64,000 nt of DNA, taken from NCBI RefSeq assembly GCF_900182835.1, contig NZ_FXUB01000001.1:186001-250000 (forward strand), written 5' to 3'. This document shows positions 267 through 6,964 of the stretch, piece after piece; position 1 is the first letter of the stretch; each line of letters opens with the position of its first letter. The stretch comes from Desulfurobacterium pacificum. Its GTDB lineage: Bacteria > Aquificota > Aquificia > Desulfurobacteriales > Desulfurobacteriaceae. The notes under the pieces are model-generated. The model did no database searches. It was not told the DNA's origin and worked only from the letters and a program-made list of their open reading frames with translations. The position numbers were made by a program, and so were the translations under genes.

Positions 267-1157
267 TTAGAAAGAATATCCGAAAGAAACCGTTGCCGTT
301 GTTTGAGTAACATCATCTTCAGTCTCTACCTCTTTATACTTATTTACACCAAGATTGAGAGAAACTCTCGCTCTCGGTGAAATGGAATATCCAAACTCTG
401 CAAAAGCACCACCTTTGTACTTCTCGGTAAGATTATAAACCACAAAACCACCATTTTTAACAGCGAAAATCTGTTTTCCCAACCATCCACCAACCTTAAC
501 GTCAAACTTCTTGTAATAATATCTCAAATCGGCTTCGGCAGAGTAGTAGTTACTATTACCTATATCAATCTCAGAAGCCTTCTCTACGTGTATATAGTAC
601 CCTTTCAAATCAGCATAAACACCACCAACTGTTGGACTTGAATATAAACGGAAAGAAGCGTGAGGAGTTAACTGCAAGACGTCAAAATTAACCTTATTAT
701 CATATTTGGAGTAGTAAATGCCTAAACCACCGCTCCAGTTAAATAGGTAAGGATAAACTTTTTGGTAATTGAAATAAGTTCCATCAAAAAAGAGAGTATA
801 CCCCCCATCTGTTAACTCATCATCGCTATTTATGTAGTGTCCTCCAAAAGTAAACGTATGATTTTTTAGAATACCGTTGGTATTTGAATAAACAAAAGTA
901 AAATCTTCCTGATTAAGGTCGCTTTTGTTCTTATAGTTTATTTTCGTATACGAAGCTCCAATTTGCACTGCGTTACCAAAACCATCTCCAGAATTTACAT
1001 ACAAAGTAGAAGAATACCCATCACTCTTCAAATCTGACCCCGAATAGTTGATATAAGTCCCGTAAACAGAAGCGTAAGTGTAAGGTTTCCCACCGGCAAG
1101 AGCAGCATTAGAACCAGCAAGCAACAAAACTGCAGCGCTAAGTAGAAGTTTTCTCAT
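267..1157 (-). CDS. Outer-membrane beta-barrel protein
   Basis: This 296-residue protein has a clean signal peptide (about residues 1-21, ending AALA) followed by alternating Tyr/Phe/Gly-rich stretches typical of beta-hairpins. It ends FGYSF, with the terminal Phe that the BAM complex recognises. Short turns rich in Asp, Asn and Gly separate roughly a dozen predicted strands. I do not recognise a specific family. A strong ribosome-binding site (AGGAGGAAGG) precedes the ATG, which lies inside the last 20 bp of the urea-transporter/M23 gene, so the two are translationally coupled. By context it may be the outer-membrane channel or receptor of this gene cluster. That role is inference; the barrel call itself is well supported. 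Confidence 0.75.
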   Translation of the reverse strand: MRKLLLSAAVLLLAGSNAALAGGKPYTYASVYGTYINYSGSDLKSDGYSSTLYVNSGDGFGNAVQIGASYTKINYKNKSDLNQEDFTFVYSNTNGILKNHTFTFGGHYINSDDELTDGGYTLFFDGTYFNYQKVYPYLFNWSGGLGIYYSKYDNKVNFDVLQLTPHASFRLYSSPTVGGVYADLKGYYIHVEKASEIDIGNSNYYSAEADLRYYYKKFDVKVGGWLGKQIFAVKNGGFVVYNLTEKYKGGAFAEFGYSISPRARVSLNLGVNKYKEVETEDDVTQTTATVSFGYSF

Positions 1158-3228
1158 CCTTCTTCCTCCTAATAATTATTTTATCGCCGAAATTGAGCTC
1201 ATCAAAACCTAAGGTATCAGATACGACTGCGCAAGCACTTTTTCTTTTTCCCAATCCTTCTATTTGTGAAACTATCTTTAATTTATTATCGGATGAAACG
1301 AATCTCAAATTAGCACCTATCTCAAACAGAGAATGTGAAAAAGAGGAAATAAACAGTAGTATAGAACGTTTCAAAGTAGAACTTATGGAAATTAAAGGTA
1401 AATAATCCCTCCACTTTAGGTTTTCTCTAAACGTAAGAGGAACTTTTGAAGCACAAAATAGAAAATATTTCAAAGGTGAGTTCACATTACCCTCTATATG
1501 ATAAAAATAAAAGGTTGAATTGGATACACCAAAGTAGAGTTTCGCACTTCCGTCTGTAAAGTAAAACGTCCCATCAGGAGCCATTTTAACTTTTATATTA
1601 AGTTCTTCTACTCTTTCCCCCATTATTACTTCATAAGAAAACTCCTGGTCTATCAAGAAGTTCAACCTATTCTGCAGTCCTTTATCAGGATACACAGGTT
1701 CTACTACTTCTCCTTTTTTGGGAATACCTACATCGTAGAAAAACTCTTTTGAAACGTAAGAAGAAAACTTGAAAGGAACAGTAGGAACGCCTGCTTCCGG
1801 AAGAAGCTGAACGTGAACGTGAATATGAGGTTGAGGAGAGTAACCAGAGTTACCACAAAGCCCTAAAAATGTTCCTTTTGCAACAAAATCACCAACCTTT
1901 ACCTTTATAGACCCCTGTTTGAAATGGGCAATTAAAACGTAGAAGCCTCTCTTATCGTAAATAACAACGTAGTTACCCCAGTTTCTTTCCCTATCTGCAG
2001 AACCGGGAGGATTATCCGGTACATCGTTTACCACAAAAACTACCTGCCCATCAATAGGCGAAAGGACAGGTTTCCCAAAAGCATAATAATCGGTTAAGCT
2101 ATAACCATCTCCTTTAAAAGTGTTACCGTCCTCATCGGTTACAACGAAATCTACCGCATATTTCCAGGCTCCTTTATGAGTCCATTCATCGTCAAAAGAC
2201 TGCCAAACAGTCCACTTACCAGAGAACGGCAAAGCAATTTCTCGTCCCGTAAAAGGAAACCTCTTTTGAGAAGTTAAAAAGTAATCAAGAGTTCTTTCAG
2301 GTGTTCCTTTATAAACTTTTGTAACGTAGTAGAAGCTAACTGACATAAGAACGTATAGAAGTATATGGGTTACCAAATTAAAAGGTAAAGCAAAAACAGG
2401 TATTCCGTAACTTTCCCAAAAAACCTTTATTCCTTCAACAACAGGAACAGAAATAACAGAAGAAAGTAAAGCAAACTTGTAACTTCTCAAAGAAGGAATA
2501 AGAAAAACTCCACCAACAGCCATAGAAACCAAAATAAAATTGAAAGCGGAAGTATCTGAAAAAGCCTGATAGTACGAACCCTTCAATAAAGCCTCAACAA
2601 AAACGCCCGAAAAGTACCCTAAAACAGACAGAAAAAACAGAATACGTGAAACAGAGAACAAAACTATTGAAATCACTAAACCTGCAATAACCTCCGGCAT
2701 AAAGAAAACTGCCCCAAGAGACTGCAAATACCCTTTCAGCCACAACGGAACTCTCAGCAGAGAGAAGTTATCGTGGTAATAAAGAGAACCTACAAAGAGG
2801 TTGGAAAACTTCACTGAAGCCAAATAGAACAGAGAACTTACCAAAACGAAAGGAACGCTGAGAACAGGTAATCTAAAGTAGTAAGAAAGAACTGAGGACA
2901 TAACGTAAGTTAAGAGAAACGTTACAATACCCGCAACTGAAAAGAAGAAAATACTCAACAGATTTACTTTAAAAAGATAACCTAAAGACAAACCTACAAG
3001 CAGCGGATTATAGATATAGTAATCAAGCCGTAAAAACTCCTTTTTAAAACCGATTAATCTCGCAAAAATGTAAGAAGAAAAAACAGATACAAGACCGCCA
3101 ATACCTAAATTAAGGTTTGTAAAAAAAGTAAGAAGGAGGAGGACGACTCCTCCCGCCAAACTTGAATTAAAAAACACTGCCGAATAGCTTCTCACTACCG
3201 GAAGGAGAAATCTTCTATAATCACTCAT
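1138..3228 (-). CDS. Urea-transporter-like membrane domain fused to M23 metallopeptidase
   Basis: The 696-residue protein is a two-part fusion. Residues 1-305 are about ten hydrophobic segments with urea-transporter hallmarks: an NPLLVGLSLG selectivity-type motif at 74-83 and a second-half LPFNLVT motif near 281. Residues 335-500 are a LytM/M23 peptidase: H351 and D360 (in YAVDF) are first zinc ligands, H435 lies in LIAHF, and H468/H470/H472 form the HxH site. About 190 further residues at the C-terminus are unassigned. M23 enzymes cut glycine-containing peptides or peptidoglycan cross-links in the periplasm. The start overlaps the decarboxylase stop by 4 bp. The context suggests processing or transport of a small peptide product rather than urea uptake, since no urease genes are visible. 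Confidence 0.85.
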   Translation of the reverse strand: MSDYRRFLLPVVRSYSAVFFNSSLAGGVVLLLLTFFTNLNLGIGGLVSVFSSYIFARLIGFKKEFLRLDYYIYNPLLVGLSLGYLFKVNLLSIFFFSVAGIVTFLLTYVMSSVLSYYFRLPVLSVPFVLVSSLFYLASVKFSNLFVGSLYYHDNFSLLRVPLWLKGYLQSLGAVFFMPEVIAGLVISIVLFSVSRILFFLSVLGYFSGVFVEALLKGSYYQAFSDTSAFNFILVSMAVGGVFLIPSLRSYKFALLSSVISVPVVEGIKVFWESYGIPVFALPFNLVTHILLYVLMSVSFYYVTKVYKGTPERTLDYFLTSQKRFPFTGREIALPFSGKWTVWQSFDDEWTHKGAWKYAVDFVVTDEDGNTFKGDGYSLTDYYAFGKPVLSPIDGQVVFVVNDVPDNPPGSADRERNWGNYVVIYDKRGFYVLIAHFKQGSIKVKVGDFVAKGTFLGLCGNSGYSPQPHIHVHVQLLPEAGVPTVPFKFSSYVSKEFFYDVGIPKKGEVVEPVYPDKGLQNRLNFLIDQEFSYEVIMGERVEELNIKVKMAPDGTFYFTDGSAKLYFGVSNSTFYFYHIEGNVNSPLKYFLFCASKVPLTFRENLKWRDYLPLISISSTLKRSILLFISSFSHSLFEIGANLRFVSSDNKLKIVSQIEGLGKRKSACAVVSDTLGFDELNFGDKIIIRRKKDEKTST

Positions 3229-4574
3229 TGCAACTTCAACCTCTCTGGCAATCTCTCTCTTCTAACGATATCTTCAAGGTTTTCAGCTTCTCTTATAAGT
3301 TCAACGTTGCCATTTTCTCCTATCAAAACAACAGCTGGACGATACCTTATAAACTGCATCCACTGGGTAACGTTGTAAGCTCCTACTGGTGAAAGTATCA
3401 ATCTCGTTCCTCTCGGTAAAGGTGGTAGGTAAACCATATCGTCAACAACGTCTATGTTCATACACAAAGGACCGTACAAGACACAGGGTTCAGTAGGACC
3501 TTGCACGTCTCTATCAATCTCTACGTTAAAGTGGTACCAGAAAGCAGTAAAGAGAACGTTTACACCAGCGTCCAAAACGTAAGCTCTGCGTCCATCAGGC
3601 ATCCTCTTGGCAGCGTGAACGGTAGTTATCAAATAGCCTGCTTCATCTACTATGGCTCTACCGCTTTCAAGGATAAGTTTGGGATAATCGCCAGGTCTTA
3701 AACTCTGTAGTAAAGCGGTACATACTCTATCCGCAAATTCTTCAATAGAAGGTACCGCAACATCAGGCGGCAGATAAACACCTCTCAATCTGTTTTTTGA
3801 AGGAAATCCTCCCCCAATGTCTAAATATTCAATCTTGAATCCAAACTCATCCTCTACTCTATAGGCAAATTCAACCATTTTCTTAACTTCTGTTTCGTAA
3901 GCCTTGGGGTCAAGAATAAACGTTCCTATATGGCAGTGAAGTCCGTTAAGTTCTAACTTGCCGCCAGAAGCTATCCTCTTAACAGCATCCCATGCCTGCC
4001 CATTCTCAAGATTAAAACCGAACCTGCTCCACTGAGGCTGAATTCCTGTATCCATGTTAAGACGAATCCCTACTTTTATTTTCTTTCCTAATTCATCTGC
4101 AACTTGTTCAAGGTCAGAAATCTCTTCAAAATGGTCAACGTTAATTCTCGCCCCTTCAGAAACGGCAATTCTTAAAGCATCTAAAGGTTTGTAAGGACCG
4201 TTAAAGATTATTTTGCTTCCCGGAATACCAAGTCTCCTCGCTTTTTCATACTCAAATTCAGAAACCACTTCTGCAGTTTCACCTTCCTGATGGAGAATGC
4301 AACAGATGGCATCAAGATAGTTAGTTTTATAAGACCAACTAAATTCAACGTTCGGATACCTGAGAGTAAAAGCGTTTTTTATCTCCCTAAACTTATTTCT
4401 AAGCTTCTTTTCAGAAAAAACAAATAGAGGAGAACCAAATTTTTCAACTAATTCTTCAACAGGAACGCCATCAATGTCCCCTCTTACCTTCCTAAAGTAA
4501 GCTCCACCTCCGAACTTGTTCATGAACCCTGTTTTAAGTTTGAAAATTACTGGTTTTTCGTAAGCCTTTTTCAT
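3225..4574 (-). CDS. PLP-dependent decarboxylase, DAP/ornithine decarboxylase fold (type III)
   Basis: The 449-residue protein has the alanine-racemase-type barrel and C-terminal beta domain of DapDC/ODC/carboxynorspermidine decarboxylases. The PLP lysine is K83 in SYKTN; HCHIGT near 214 and GGGFPS near 255 bind the cofactor phosphate. A GPLCMNID segment near 366 supplies the Cys and Asp that act across the dimer interface. It is not an obvious LysA, because the genes around it are for peptide modification rather than lysine synthesis. The substrate cannot be read from sequence: it may be a free amino acid, an ATP-grasp product or a peptide C-terminus. AAGGAGG precedes the ATG, and the gene begins 15 bp after the second Cys-rich peptide gene. 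Confidence 0.82.
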   Translation of the reverse strand: MKKAYEKPVIFKLKTGFMNKFGGGAYFRKVRGDIDGVPVEELVEKFGSPLFVFSEKKLRNKFREIKNAFTLRYPNVEFSWSYKTNYLDAICCILHQEGETAEVVSEFEYEKARRLGIPGSKIIFNGPYKPLDALRIAVSEGARINVDHFEEISDLEQVADELGKKIKVGIRLNMDTGIQPQWSRFGFNLENGQAWDAVKRIASGGKLELNGLHCHIGTFILDPKAYETEVKKMVEFAYRVEDEFGFKIEYLDIGGGFPSKNRLRGVYLPPDVAVPSIEEFADRVCTALLQSLRPGDYPKLILESGRAIVDEAGYLITTVHAAKRMPDGRRAYVLDAGVNVLFTAFWYHFNVEIDRDVQGPTEPCVLYGPLCMNIDVVDDMVYLPPLPRGTRLILSPVGAYNVTQWMQFIRYRPAVVLIGENGNVELIREAENLEDIVRRERLPERLKLQ

Positions 4575-4589
4575 TTTATACCTCCTTAT

Positions 4590-4712
4590 TTACCATCTAC
4601 AGTGCCAGCAGTGACAAAACGCTCCATGACACCCTCTAAGCCCGCAACAAAAACCTCCTAAAACCCAAAGAACAACTAAGATAACTACCAAAATCCACCA
4701 TCCACCTCTCAT
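4590..4712 (-). CDS. 40-residue Cys/His-rich single-pass membrane peptide
   Basis: This ORF has its own Shine-Dalgarno site (GAGGAGG at 4718-4724, within the end of the preceding peptide gene) and starts ATG at 4712. The product is MRGGWW, then a long hydrophobic run (residues 7-20), then a short tail with six Cys and three His: FCCGLRGCHG followed by AFCHCWHCRW. The tail could bind metal or be the substrate of the adjacent modifying enzymes. It sits 2 bp after the first peptide gene and directly before the decarboxylase. I recognise no family. A working translation signal on both sides and the shared Cys-rich character support it as a real gene. Confidence 0.72.
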   Translation of the reverse strand: MRGGWWILVVILVVLWVLGGFCCGLRGCHGAFCHCWHCRW

Positions 4713-4714
4713 TT

Positions 4715-4846
4715 TTACCTCCTCGCAGGTGGACAGGGACAGCATCTATGAGGATAACAACCACAGTTTTTGTAGCAGGGACAACAAGAAGATAAAACAC
4801 CTCCAAACGTTACAAGAAGAAAGAAAAGAGCTATCAGTTTTTTCAT
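4715..4846 (-). CDS. 43-residue Cys-rich lipoprotein-like peptide
   Basis: The ATG at 4846 lies one base after the ATP-grasp stop codon, with GGGGAGGTG as its ribosome-binding site. The product begins MKKLIALFFLLV, a signal sequence, and reaches a lipobox-like LSSC near residues 19-22. The remaining 22 residues hold eight Cys in the pattern CCPC-(3)-CGC-(4)-CCPC and end PPARR. If lipidated, the mature chain would be a tiny Cys cluster anchored in the membrane. It could be a metal-binding peptide or the precursor of a ribosomally made modified peptide, given the PqqD, ATP-grasp and decarboxylase genes around it. Function is inference. Confidence 0.75.
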   Translation of the reverse strand: MKKLIALFFLLVTFGGVLSSCCPCYKNCGCYPHRCCPCPPARR

Positions 4847-4847
4847 A

Positions 4848-5876
4848 TTACACCTCCCCTCTTGTAACTATCTTTTGGAACTTTTCCATATCGGTTACAA
4901 AGTCATCTGTAAAGCGAACGTATAACTTACCTGCCTCGTAATCGGAATCTCTTTCAGGCTCAATACCTAAAGAAGCTTTAAGAAGCCTTCCAGGCAGGTT
5001 TACACCAACACCAGTGGCGAAATACACCCAGGCAGGAAACCTTGGGTTTATCTCTATCAGGTATATATCATCACCGTTCACTATACATTCAAATTCAAAA
5101 GCACCTCTCCACTTAAAGGCTTCCACAAAGCGCTTAGCGGCAGCTGTAAGTTTTTCATTTTTTAGAGTAACGCCCGTCCATATCTTTCCAAGTGACGTTA
5201 TCCAGAGCTTCTTTATGGCAACAAGTCCGAAATCACCACCTTCGCCATCACCCACGCCAACAACGTTCATCTCTTCACCGGAAACAACTTCCTGAACGAT
5301 TATTGGATATCCCCACTCAGAAGCTATGGAGTTAAAGTAAGAGGTAGCCTGAGAGATATTGAACGCCTTGTAAGCCTTGTAAAAAATCCCCTTCACCATC
5401 ACAGGAAAACCAACCTCTTCAACAGCTTTAACGAAATCCTCGTAAGAAGTTACAACTAATGTTTTAGGAACCTTAACTTCTATTTTTTCAGCAACTTCAG
5501 TTAACTTATCCTTACTTCTCAACCTAAACTGCTCTTCAGTAGGAAGAAACGTAGCAATACCAAAAGAAGAAAGTTTCTGAGCGTTCTTTATGAAAAGCGG
5601 CAATTCAGCATCAAGGGCAGGAATAACTGCATCAAGACCGCTTTTTGACTTAATGTAAAGAAGTCTTTCAATAAAAATCTCTTCGCCTTCAGATGGATAA
5701 GGCATTATGTAACTTTTGTCTATCAGCCAATCCATATATATTCCCGGTTCCATAGCATCGTAAGCAAAACCGATAACTTTTACTTCTAAACCGCTCTCTT
5801 TAACGCTCTTAGCTATTCCTATACCAGGACCTGGGTTGTCAACAGCGTTTATTCCGGAAACTCCTACCCTATACAT
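4848..5876 (-). CDS. ATP-grasp carboxylate-amine ligase
   Basis: The 342-residue protein has a CarB-like layout: an N-terminal Rossmann-like pre-ATP-grasp domain (residues 1-110), then ATP-grasp subdomains including a Lys-containing GFPVMVKG strand near 175, VQEVVSGEEMNVVG near 215 and the Mg-binding EINPRFPAW near 290. Members join a carboxylate to an amine through an acyl-phosphate and serve in peptide tailoring and small-molecule synthesis. Its ATG lies inside the last 8 bp of the PqqD gene, and the first Cys-rich peptide gene starts 1 bp after its stop. That tight pairing suggests it acts on a peptide held by the PqqD-like protein. Position 5382-5391 carries one GGGGATTTTT motif. Confidence 0.85.
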   Translation of the reverse strand: MYRVGVSGINAVDNPGPGIGIAKSVKESGLEVKVIGFAYDAMEPGIYMDWLIDKSYIMPYPSEGEEIFIERLLYIKSKSGLDAVIPALDAELPLFIKNAQKLSSFGIATFLPTEEQFRLRSKDKLTEVAEKIEVKVPKTLVVTSYEDFVKAVEEVGFPVMVKGIFYKAYKAFNISQATSYFNSIASEWGYPIIVQEVVSGEEMNVVGVGDGEGGDFGLVAIKKLWITSLGKIWTGVTLKNEKLTAAAKRFVEAFKWRGAFEFECIVNGDDIYLIEINPRFPAWVYFATGVGVNLPGRLLKASLGIEPERDSDYEAGKLYVRFTDDFVTDMEKFQKIVTRGEV

Positions 5877-6120
5877 TTTTTGCCTCCAAAATTCCCATCA
5901 ACCTGAGCTGCTCCAAGAAATCAATCAAATCTTTCTCTGCTTCTTCTCTTTCTACCTCGTAGTTTTCAACCAAAGCATCAAGAATTTCCGATTCACCCTT
6001 TCCTTCTTTTAGCTGTTTTAAAATGAAGAGCCCCACTTCGTTTACCGTATAGCTATTTCCCGTTTCCGGGTCAAAGATAAAACCTTCATCGTTAATAGCT
6101 AACCTGTTCAGTTTGTTCAT
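5869..6120 (-). CDS. PqqD-family peptide chaperone (RRE-type winged helix)
   Basis: The 83-residue protein starts ATG at 6120; a longer in-frame extension exists but lacks a ribosome-binding site, while AGGAGGTGAAAAG sits just before this ATG. It shows the PqqD pattern: FDPETGNSYTVNEVG at 16-30 (beta-hairpin), a helix containing ILKQL, EILDALVENY, and a C-terminal DLIDFLEQLRLMGIL. PqqD-like domains bind the leader of a ribosomally made precursor and present it to modifying enzymes. It overlaps the DUF4405 stop by 4 bp (ATGA) and the ATP-grasp start by 8 bp. No radical SAM enzyme is visible here, so this is not a PQQ operon. Confidence 0.85.
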   Translation of the reverse strand: MNKLNRLAINDEGFIFDPETGNSYTVNEVGLFILKQLKEGKGESEILDALVENYEVEREEAEKDLIDFLEQLRLMGILEAKNV

Positions 6121-6932
6121 CTTTTCACCTCCTGTAAAATCTGAAAGACCTGATAGGGATACATTCCATTTCCAAAAGCGATATCCCTCAAAGTGGTATC
6201 GGGAGAAACGTTTTTCAAACCATTCTGCTTTAAAACAATCACACATCTGTTCACTGGAATTCCCATTTCTCTACATATCTCTCTTAGCGTTTTTCTCCCC
6301 ATACCAGAACCTGGAACAAAAACGGCACTTCTTCTATTTTCTTTAAAAGAAACAGCTCTTTTAAGAATGGAATAAACGTAAGCTGGCGTAACTCCGTTCT
6401 CTACAGCTATCTGCTTCAAAGTTTCTTTAGGAGACTCTACTTTTAAGCCTTTAGATTGAAGAATAGCAACAGCTTTTGAAGGGGAAATTCCTAAAGTAGA
6501 ACTGACTCTTTCAAGGGTAAAAAGCTCAGCGTGAGGAGCCGGAGGCATAACGGCTGGTTTCTTCCACGAATTTTTAATTTTCTCTCCTAAACTCATAAAT
6601 GAACTAAATGGAGGAACGTTAAGAATAGTTCCTATCAAACAGACAAGAGCTAAAATCGTTGCTGAGAGGAAAATCCCCCCACTCTTCTCTATATACTTCA
6701 CTATATTCTTCCAGTTTAAAATAACGTGCCATACTCCAAAAATCACCATTAAAAATCCAAAAATCGTGTGTACGGCATCCCATTGGTCTTTGTCAAGTCC
6801 AAGAAATCTCCAGCCTGTCCAATAAGCAACTCTCCCATGTGGCATAATGTAGAGAACAATTCCAGAAACAATCATTACTACAAGGCAGTAAAGGAGAAAC
6901 AGGCTGACAAATTTCCTTGTCTTCATTTTCAA
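6117..6932 (-). CDS. DUF4405 membrane protein with two C-terminal helical repeats
   Basis: The 271-residue protein has three hydrophobic segments (about 8-30, 52-73 and 86-105) and resembles DUF4405 proteins, cytochrome-b561-like four-helix proteins. H32 (MPHGRVAYWTGW), H55 and H69 are candidate haem or metal ligands. After the conserved GTILNVPPFS segment a soluble part holds two copies of one module, at about 141-192 and 216-269, each reading roughly LGI-x-AV-x-IL-x-GLK-x-SP-x-TL-x-IA-x-NG-x-P-x-V-x-x-IL. This suggests a redox or membrane-anchoring protein with a peptide- or protein-binding tail. It is cotranscribed with the PqqD gene (4 bp overlap). A hairpin upstream may set its level relative to the Gln-rich gene. 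Confidence 0.75.
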   Translation of the reverse strand: MKMKTRKFVSLFLLYCLVVMIVSGIVLYIMPHGRVAYWTGWRFLGLDKDQWDAVHTIFGFLMVIFGVWHVILNWKNIVKYIEKSGGIFLSATILALVCLIGTILNVPPFSSFMSLGEKIKNSWKKPAVMPPAPHAELFTLERVSSTLGISPSKAVAILQSKGLKVESPKETLKQIAVENGVTPAYVYSILKRAVSFKENRRSAVFVPGSGMGRKTLREICREMGIPVNRCVIVLKQNGLKNVSPDTTLRDIAFGNGMYPYQVFQILQEVKR

Positions 6933-6939
6933 CCTCCTT

Positions 6940-6964
6940 AAAAAGGTGGAGGCAGACCGCCTCC
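6940..6964 (-). terminator. Hairpin with U-tract, likely attenuator between Gln-rich gene and DUF4405 gene
   Basis: On the minus strand GGAGGC-GGTCT-GCCTCC (6964-6948) is a perfect 6-bp GC-rich stem with a 5-nt loop, followed by ACC and five T (6944-6940). It lies 4 bp after the Gln-rich gene stop and 8 bp before the DUF4405 start. The three bases between stem and T run make it weaker than a canonical terminator, so partial read-through is likely. Confidence 0.6.

Follow-up and report, generated by a model that had tools for sequence, protein, structure and literature searches.

A dispersed family of tiny cysteine-rich, putatively lipid-anchored peptides in operon gaps of Aquificota

Described cysteine-rich peptides and the Desulfurobacterium pacificum locus

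Bacterial metallothioneins such as SmtA and MymT are short proteins with a high content of cysteine and histidine, and in mycobacteria short polycysteine reading frames attenuate operons. Copper-responsive upstream frames of the DUF2946-like CruR/CutF type, marked by CXXC and a C-terminal RAPP and placed first in copper-linked operons, encode an exported Cys-containing peptide directly before a gene. The bufferins, which include Buf1 (DUF2282) and Buf2, are Cys-rich periplasmic copper-binding RiPPs, and lipoprotein signals are predicted in about 16% of Buf2 (PMC12452194).

We analyzed a window of 64,000 nucleotides from D. pacificum in which two tiny Cys-rich frames, here called P1 and P2, lie back to back on the minus strand. 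P1 shares short length and Cys/His richness with SmtA and MymT and adds to these an export signal and a lipobox, with no Pfam match. Like the bufferins it is small, Cys-rich and predicted to be Sec-exported, but its mature part is very short and neither P1 nor P2 matches the Buf1 family DUF2282 in Pfam. The MNIO maturase (PF05114), which makes Cys-rich copper RiPPs, was detected in 0 of 22 family genomes, with a control search positive in 2 of 14, and bufferin-type maturation is therefore unsupported there. As in CruR/CutF, the putatively exported peptide stands directly before a gene; P1, however, has neither a DUF2946 match nor a RAPP motif, is not at the head of its operon and belongs to a family found in six unrelated contexts. 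Finally, P1 resembles the mycobacterial frames in being a tiny Cys-rich frame within an operon, whereas its family retains a signal and lipobox and five of its members follow the last gene of a run.

The surrounding genes form an operon-like series on the minus strand. In the order of transcription, these encode a DUF4405 membrane protein (6117..6932, Pfam DUF4405), a PqqD-like protein (5869..6141, Pfam PqqD E 1e-17, the start at 6141 being one choice and the longest frame beginning at 6246), an ATP-grasp ligase (4848..5876, Pfam ATP-grasp_3 and others), P1 (4715..4846), P2 (4590..4712), a LysA-like PLP decarboxylase with a leader-like N-terminus, YEKP...NKFG (3225..4574), a urea transporter-like domain fused to an M23 peptidase (1138..3228, Pfam UT and Peptidase_M23) and a conserved last gene of the cassette without a Pfam family, outer-membrane barrel-like by eye (267..1157). 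A terminator-like hairpin on the minus strand (6948-6964) separates a 100-aa gene from the DUF4405 gene, which may thus open a new transcription unit.

The initial annotation had described frames of 43 and 40 codons with their own Shine-Dalgarno sites, and we recovered every one of these features on the minus strand. P1 is 43 aa long (MKKLIALFFLLVTFGGVLSSCCPCYKNCGCYPHRCCPCPPARR) and P2 40 aa (MRGGWWILVVILVVLWVLGGFCCGLRGCHGAFCHCWHCRW); the gaps are 1 bp from ATP-grasp to P1, 2 bp from P1 to P2 and 15 bp from P2 to the decarboxylase, and the Shine-Dalgarno-like sequences GGGGAGG and GAGGAGG precede the ATG of P1 and P2, respectively. The Cys-rich tails are likewise present. P1 carries a signal and, by eye, the lipobox LSSC before the Cys that is invariant in its family, followed by a mature part that we count from the lipobox Cys as 23 residues with 8 Cys. 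P2 has a hydrophobic helix and no lipobox; counted from its CC, 19 residues contain 6 Cys and 3 His. Neither frame has a Pfam match.

Chance is a poor explanation for these frames. A scan of the whole window for 25-70-aa frames in which 25 residues hold 6 or more Cys found P1 and P2 and no others, P2 being caught via a longer upstream ATG although the Shine-Dalgarno site belongs to its own start at 4712. In 60 windows simulated by a Markov model such Cys-rich frames numbered 0.083 per window, and no simulated frame had a Shine-Dalgarno site.

The two frames differ in what relatives have to say about them. That both were real small genes, as initially proposed, is well supported for P1, with its family in other genomes, and weakly for P2, an orphan conserved in no genome searched. 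Among 80 other genomes P2 had no credible relatives, only weak matches (best E 0.019). Its likeness to the P1 profile was not clearly above shuffles, 26 of 500 of which reached its score, and its match to the lmo0937 family membrane protein (NCBIfam NF033488; E 0.003) scored 17.6 bits against a curated cut-off of 30 bits. In the only other genome of the genus examined (G001, assembly 83% complete), neither the ATP-grasp nor the decarboxylase gene was detected. P2 is thus an unproven gene, suggested by its own sequence: a frame of unusual composition that fills the gap and is preceded by a good Shine-Dalgarno site. Beyond the frame, it would probably be a second membrane-anchored Cys/His peptide with a use similar to that of P1.

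Distribution and selection of the P1 family

A profile built from 12 aligned P1-like frames was applied first to 81 genomes and later to 136, all of the latter from the phylum. We found 14 members in 12 of the 136 genomes, covering 4 genera and 2 families, and no Pfam or NCBIfam entry names them. Two members absent from the initial profile were recovered by it: one in G133, a genome from another family of the same class (E 1.7e-7), and a second copy in G009 (E 8e-4). All 14 members have an invariant Cys-Cys at the lipobox, although, judged by eye, the lipobox is imperfect in several of them (NPGC, TSGC, APSC). Mature parts span 15-25 residues with 4-8 Cys and 0-5 His, and purine runs resembling Shine-Dalgarno sites lie upstream of 13 of the 14 (by eye).

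With sequences this short and rich in Cys, convergence could account for some of the members. In a leave-one-out comparison with 300 composition-matched shuffles, 11 of the 14 members had 0 or 1 shuffle reaching their score (P1 itself, 0 of 300); the weaker ones were those of G006 (5/300), the second copy in G009 (14/300) and the slot copy of G014 (44/300). Several further profile matches were rejected as chance, three of them (G053, G093 and G116) despite E up to 0.001: the weak matches in G053 and G044 run antisense within a 369-aa gene, that in G093 contains internal stop codons, that in G116 corresponds to no frame, and that in G187 covers the signal part only, inside a 205-aa frame. Low-scoring matches were inspected at 9 places, of which one was real (the second G009 copy) and 8 had no small Cys-rich frame. 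Searches of plasmids gave no match to P1, and the profile found no credible member either among 41 genomes from the class to which a Thermosulfurimonas locus belongs or among 25 from the phylum that includes a Hippea locus. We found no description of P1-like peptides among the papers listed in the literature searched, in which few subscription papers were covered.

The members are spread over unrelated settings. Five occupy the slot between the ATP-grasp and decarboxylase genes, and five lie behind a gene for pyruvate carboxylase subunit B/oxaloacetate decarboxylase alpha (hereafter the carboxylase site), where the next gene is a tRNA-Pro gene for four of them and, for the other, an HrcA-like gene on the opposite strand. 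Each of the remaining four lies between a different pair of genes: rlmN and a fructose-bisphosphatase gene; the genes for a NiFe-hydrogenase cytochrome b and its maturation protease (here the member overlaps the longest protease frame); an ArsA/Get3-type ATPase gene and mtaB; and a Crp/Fnr-type gene and a lysine-aminomutase-like gene. The members thus occupy six places, and nine sets of flanks compared by blastn shared no DNA between different places. With at least six places lacking common flanking DNA, the gene may have moved or re-arisen several times.

Occupancy of the ATP-grasp/decarboxylase slot is patchy. The ATP-grasp gene is present in 28 of 81 genomes, 18 of them, D. pacificum included, in family f1. 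A P1-like peptide fills the slot in five of these 18 loci, namely D. pacificum (G000) and all four genomes of genus g4 (G004, G009, G014 and G017). Twelve have no small Cys-rich frame in a gap of 2-70 bp, and the last, G005, has a gene for a 96-residue cytochrome c-like protein (L009 2529-2816) with a CASCH motif, a Cys-rich tail and a match to Pfam Cytochrome_CBB3 at its cut-off. A second scan took in 80 loci from named genomes, partly the same family genomes; both flanking genes were found in 74, and 73 were counted after L122, with a partial decarboxylase match only, was set aside. In 72 of these 73 the slot held no frame with at least 4 Cys, and the sole exception (L092) was G014 again. 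A tree of the two flanking proteins gives moderate support to a position of genus g1 outside a cluster of g4 and the other group members, which implies that the slot was either filled early and then emptied, or filled more than once.

Purifying selection on the family is clear at the carboxylase site. In four alignable sequences pooled pS was 0.54 and pN 0.15, variable columns fell at codon positions 1/2/3 in a ratio of 15/6/24 (p 0.0045), and seven Cys columns were invariant. Amino-acid changes were below random placement in 6 of 6 pairs (p 0.02 or less), as were Cys losses (p about 0.002-0.04), the six pairs being non-independent because they share sequences and the fifth member (G021), of different length, being excluded. 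The picture in the slot is different. The one comparable pair there, G004/G017, has 4 synonymous versus 15 nonsynonymous differences and has lost two Cys positions, no better than random, whereas the neighboring ATP-grasp and decarboxylase genes of the same pair have pN near 0.02. Hence, of the conservation expected by the initial annotation, P1-like frames were indeed kept in relatives, but within the slot itself the substitutions in one close pair are unbiased by codon position and Cys is lost. For this pair at least, the pattern speaks against a strong role of P1 in the operon. Taken together with the slot member of G014, which retains only 4 Cys and fails the shuffle test, it suggests that the P1-type gene may be decaying or relaxed in the slot.

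Possible role of P1 and competing explanations

Starting from the frame, its family, the dispersal of that family and purifying selection at one of its sites, lipidation of P1, a membrane location and binding of metal or sulfur are plausible readings of the sequences. We propose that P1 is an exported, lipid-anchored mini-peptide that serves as a periplasmic buffer for soft metals or sulfur, a proposal to which we give about even chances. P1 would be exported by Sec, and the first Cys of the invariant Cys-Cys would be lipidated. Cleavage by signal peptidase II, for which D. pacificum encodes LspA (PF01252, E 4e-40), would leave a thiolate/imidazole peptide of 15-25 residues on the periplasmic side of the membrane, and the tethered peptide could then bind soft metal ions, or polysulfide, in the manner of a metallothionein. 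Its task would be buffering, not participation in an enzyme; the absence of a common neighbor across the family favors such a free-standing buffer over a subunit. Its gene would occupy gaps in unrelated operons and be co-read with them, and in D. pacificum it would be dispensable for the pathway of the ATP-grasp and decarboxylase genes between which it lies. For the family at large, found in several unrelated operons of relatives, anchoring in the membrane and binding of metal or sulfur are probable. The broader claim, that Aquificota harbor an unnamed family of tiny lipid-anchored thiolate peptides (mature part of 15-25 residues, up to 8 Cys) that buffer metal or sulfur from gaps in housekeeping operons and have moved or re-arisen several times, is made more tentatively and is somewhat more likely to fail than to hold. 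Tiny frames such as P1 and P2 fall under annotation cut-offs, and a possible membrane-tethered metal or sulfur buffer of these thermophiles may have been overlooked in this way. The family also lends itself to testing: its peptides are short enough for synthesis, selection is visible in an alignment of four orthologues, and relatives offer sites where the gene is missing.

Among the alternatives, the one that fares best is that P1 and P2 are near-neutral and short-lived genes that arose in operon gaps or were copied there, and that have no settled function in the slot. The relaxed G004/G017 pair, the degenerate G014 copy, the orphan status of P2 and the patchy presence of the slot peptide all fit this explanation. 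It accounts poorly, however, for the purifying selection at the carboxylase site, for a Cys-Cys kept in every one of the 14 members and for upstream purine runs in nearly all of them, and we regard it as unlikely, though not negligible.

A second alternative is that P1 is a translated leader that senses metal or cysteine and controls the decarboxylase in the manner of CruR/CutF. Of the five slot members, four end in two Arg codons (AGGAGG) that double as the Shine-Dalgarno site of the next gene, and translation is thus probably coupled to that gene; CutF likewise pairs an export signal with a Cys motif (PMC9973294). The DUF2946 and RAPP features are, however, missing from P2 as well as P1, P1 lies in the middle of its operon rather than first, and there is scant space for an intergenic hairpin. 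Moreover, the folding of 341 nt of RNA around P1 (z -1.08) is not unusual over P1 and P2, and none of the five members at the carboxylase site is directly followed by a coding gene on its own strand. We consider this explanation quite improbable.

The PqqD/ATP-grasp/decarboxylase cassette

The initial annotation had favored precursor peptides or metal-binding subunits of the system encoded around P1 and P2. Their closely spaced position within the operon, their Shine-Dalgarno sites and the P1-like peptides in 5 of the 18 f1 slots (4 of 4 in g4) would agree with a precursor or accessory role in the PqqD/ATP-grasp/decarboxylase system, but with 12 of the 18 slots empty and one holding a cytochrome c-like gene, 9 of the 14 family members in other operons, and Sec-type rather than leader N-termini in both peptides, this is the least probable of the explanations and very doubtful. 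P1 did not co-occur with the PqqD and ATP-grasp genes in 13 of the 18 f1 loci, and the 12 empty slots imply that it is no required part or precursor of the system; together with the 72 of 73 second-scan loci lacking the peptide, these counts leave the claim that the peptides are "of the system" unsupported.

The claim of precursor peptides is unsupported at the level of the recognition motif as well. Leader binding is a property of PqqD-like domains, and a characterized recognition motif in a group that includes PqqD is YxxP (PMC12710340). The YxxP type of RRE recognition motif was looked for and is absent from P1 and P2. Near the start of the decarboxylase a Y-x-x-P occurs in each of the 82 distinct N-termini taken from the 106 loci examined (81 matched the pattern, and L139, with YEAP, was recognized by eye; the N-terminus was missing from one additional row, L122), in most of them followed by a stretch resembling G-x-M-N-K-F-G. 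In D. pacificum this N-terminus is encoded at 4500-4574. With MNIO absent from all 22 family genomes as well, reading P1 and P2 as precursors of this widespread cassette can be set aside, and the decarboxylase N-terminus becomes the likelier PqqD target and a possible partner, as judged from its motif. This N-terminus looks like a RiPP leader fused to a PLP enzyme beside a PqqD gene.

The cassette itself, consisting of PqqD, ATP-grasp, LysA-like decarboxylase, urea-transporter/M23 fusion and the barrel-like last gene (267-6141), occurs in many phyla as judged from record titles (L086-L165); at least 547 relatives of the ATP-grasp protein were found and 80 loci were inspected. We found no description of it in the literature searched. 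Variants were seen as well. In G080 an ATP-grasp gene with 66% identity (L064 5460-6482) had no PqqD, decarboxylase or transporter gene detected within 12.5 kb, and in G011 the full cassette is accompanied by an additional PqqD gene and by part of another ATP-grasp gene, covering query residues 1-161 (L051 8625-9345).
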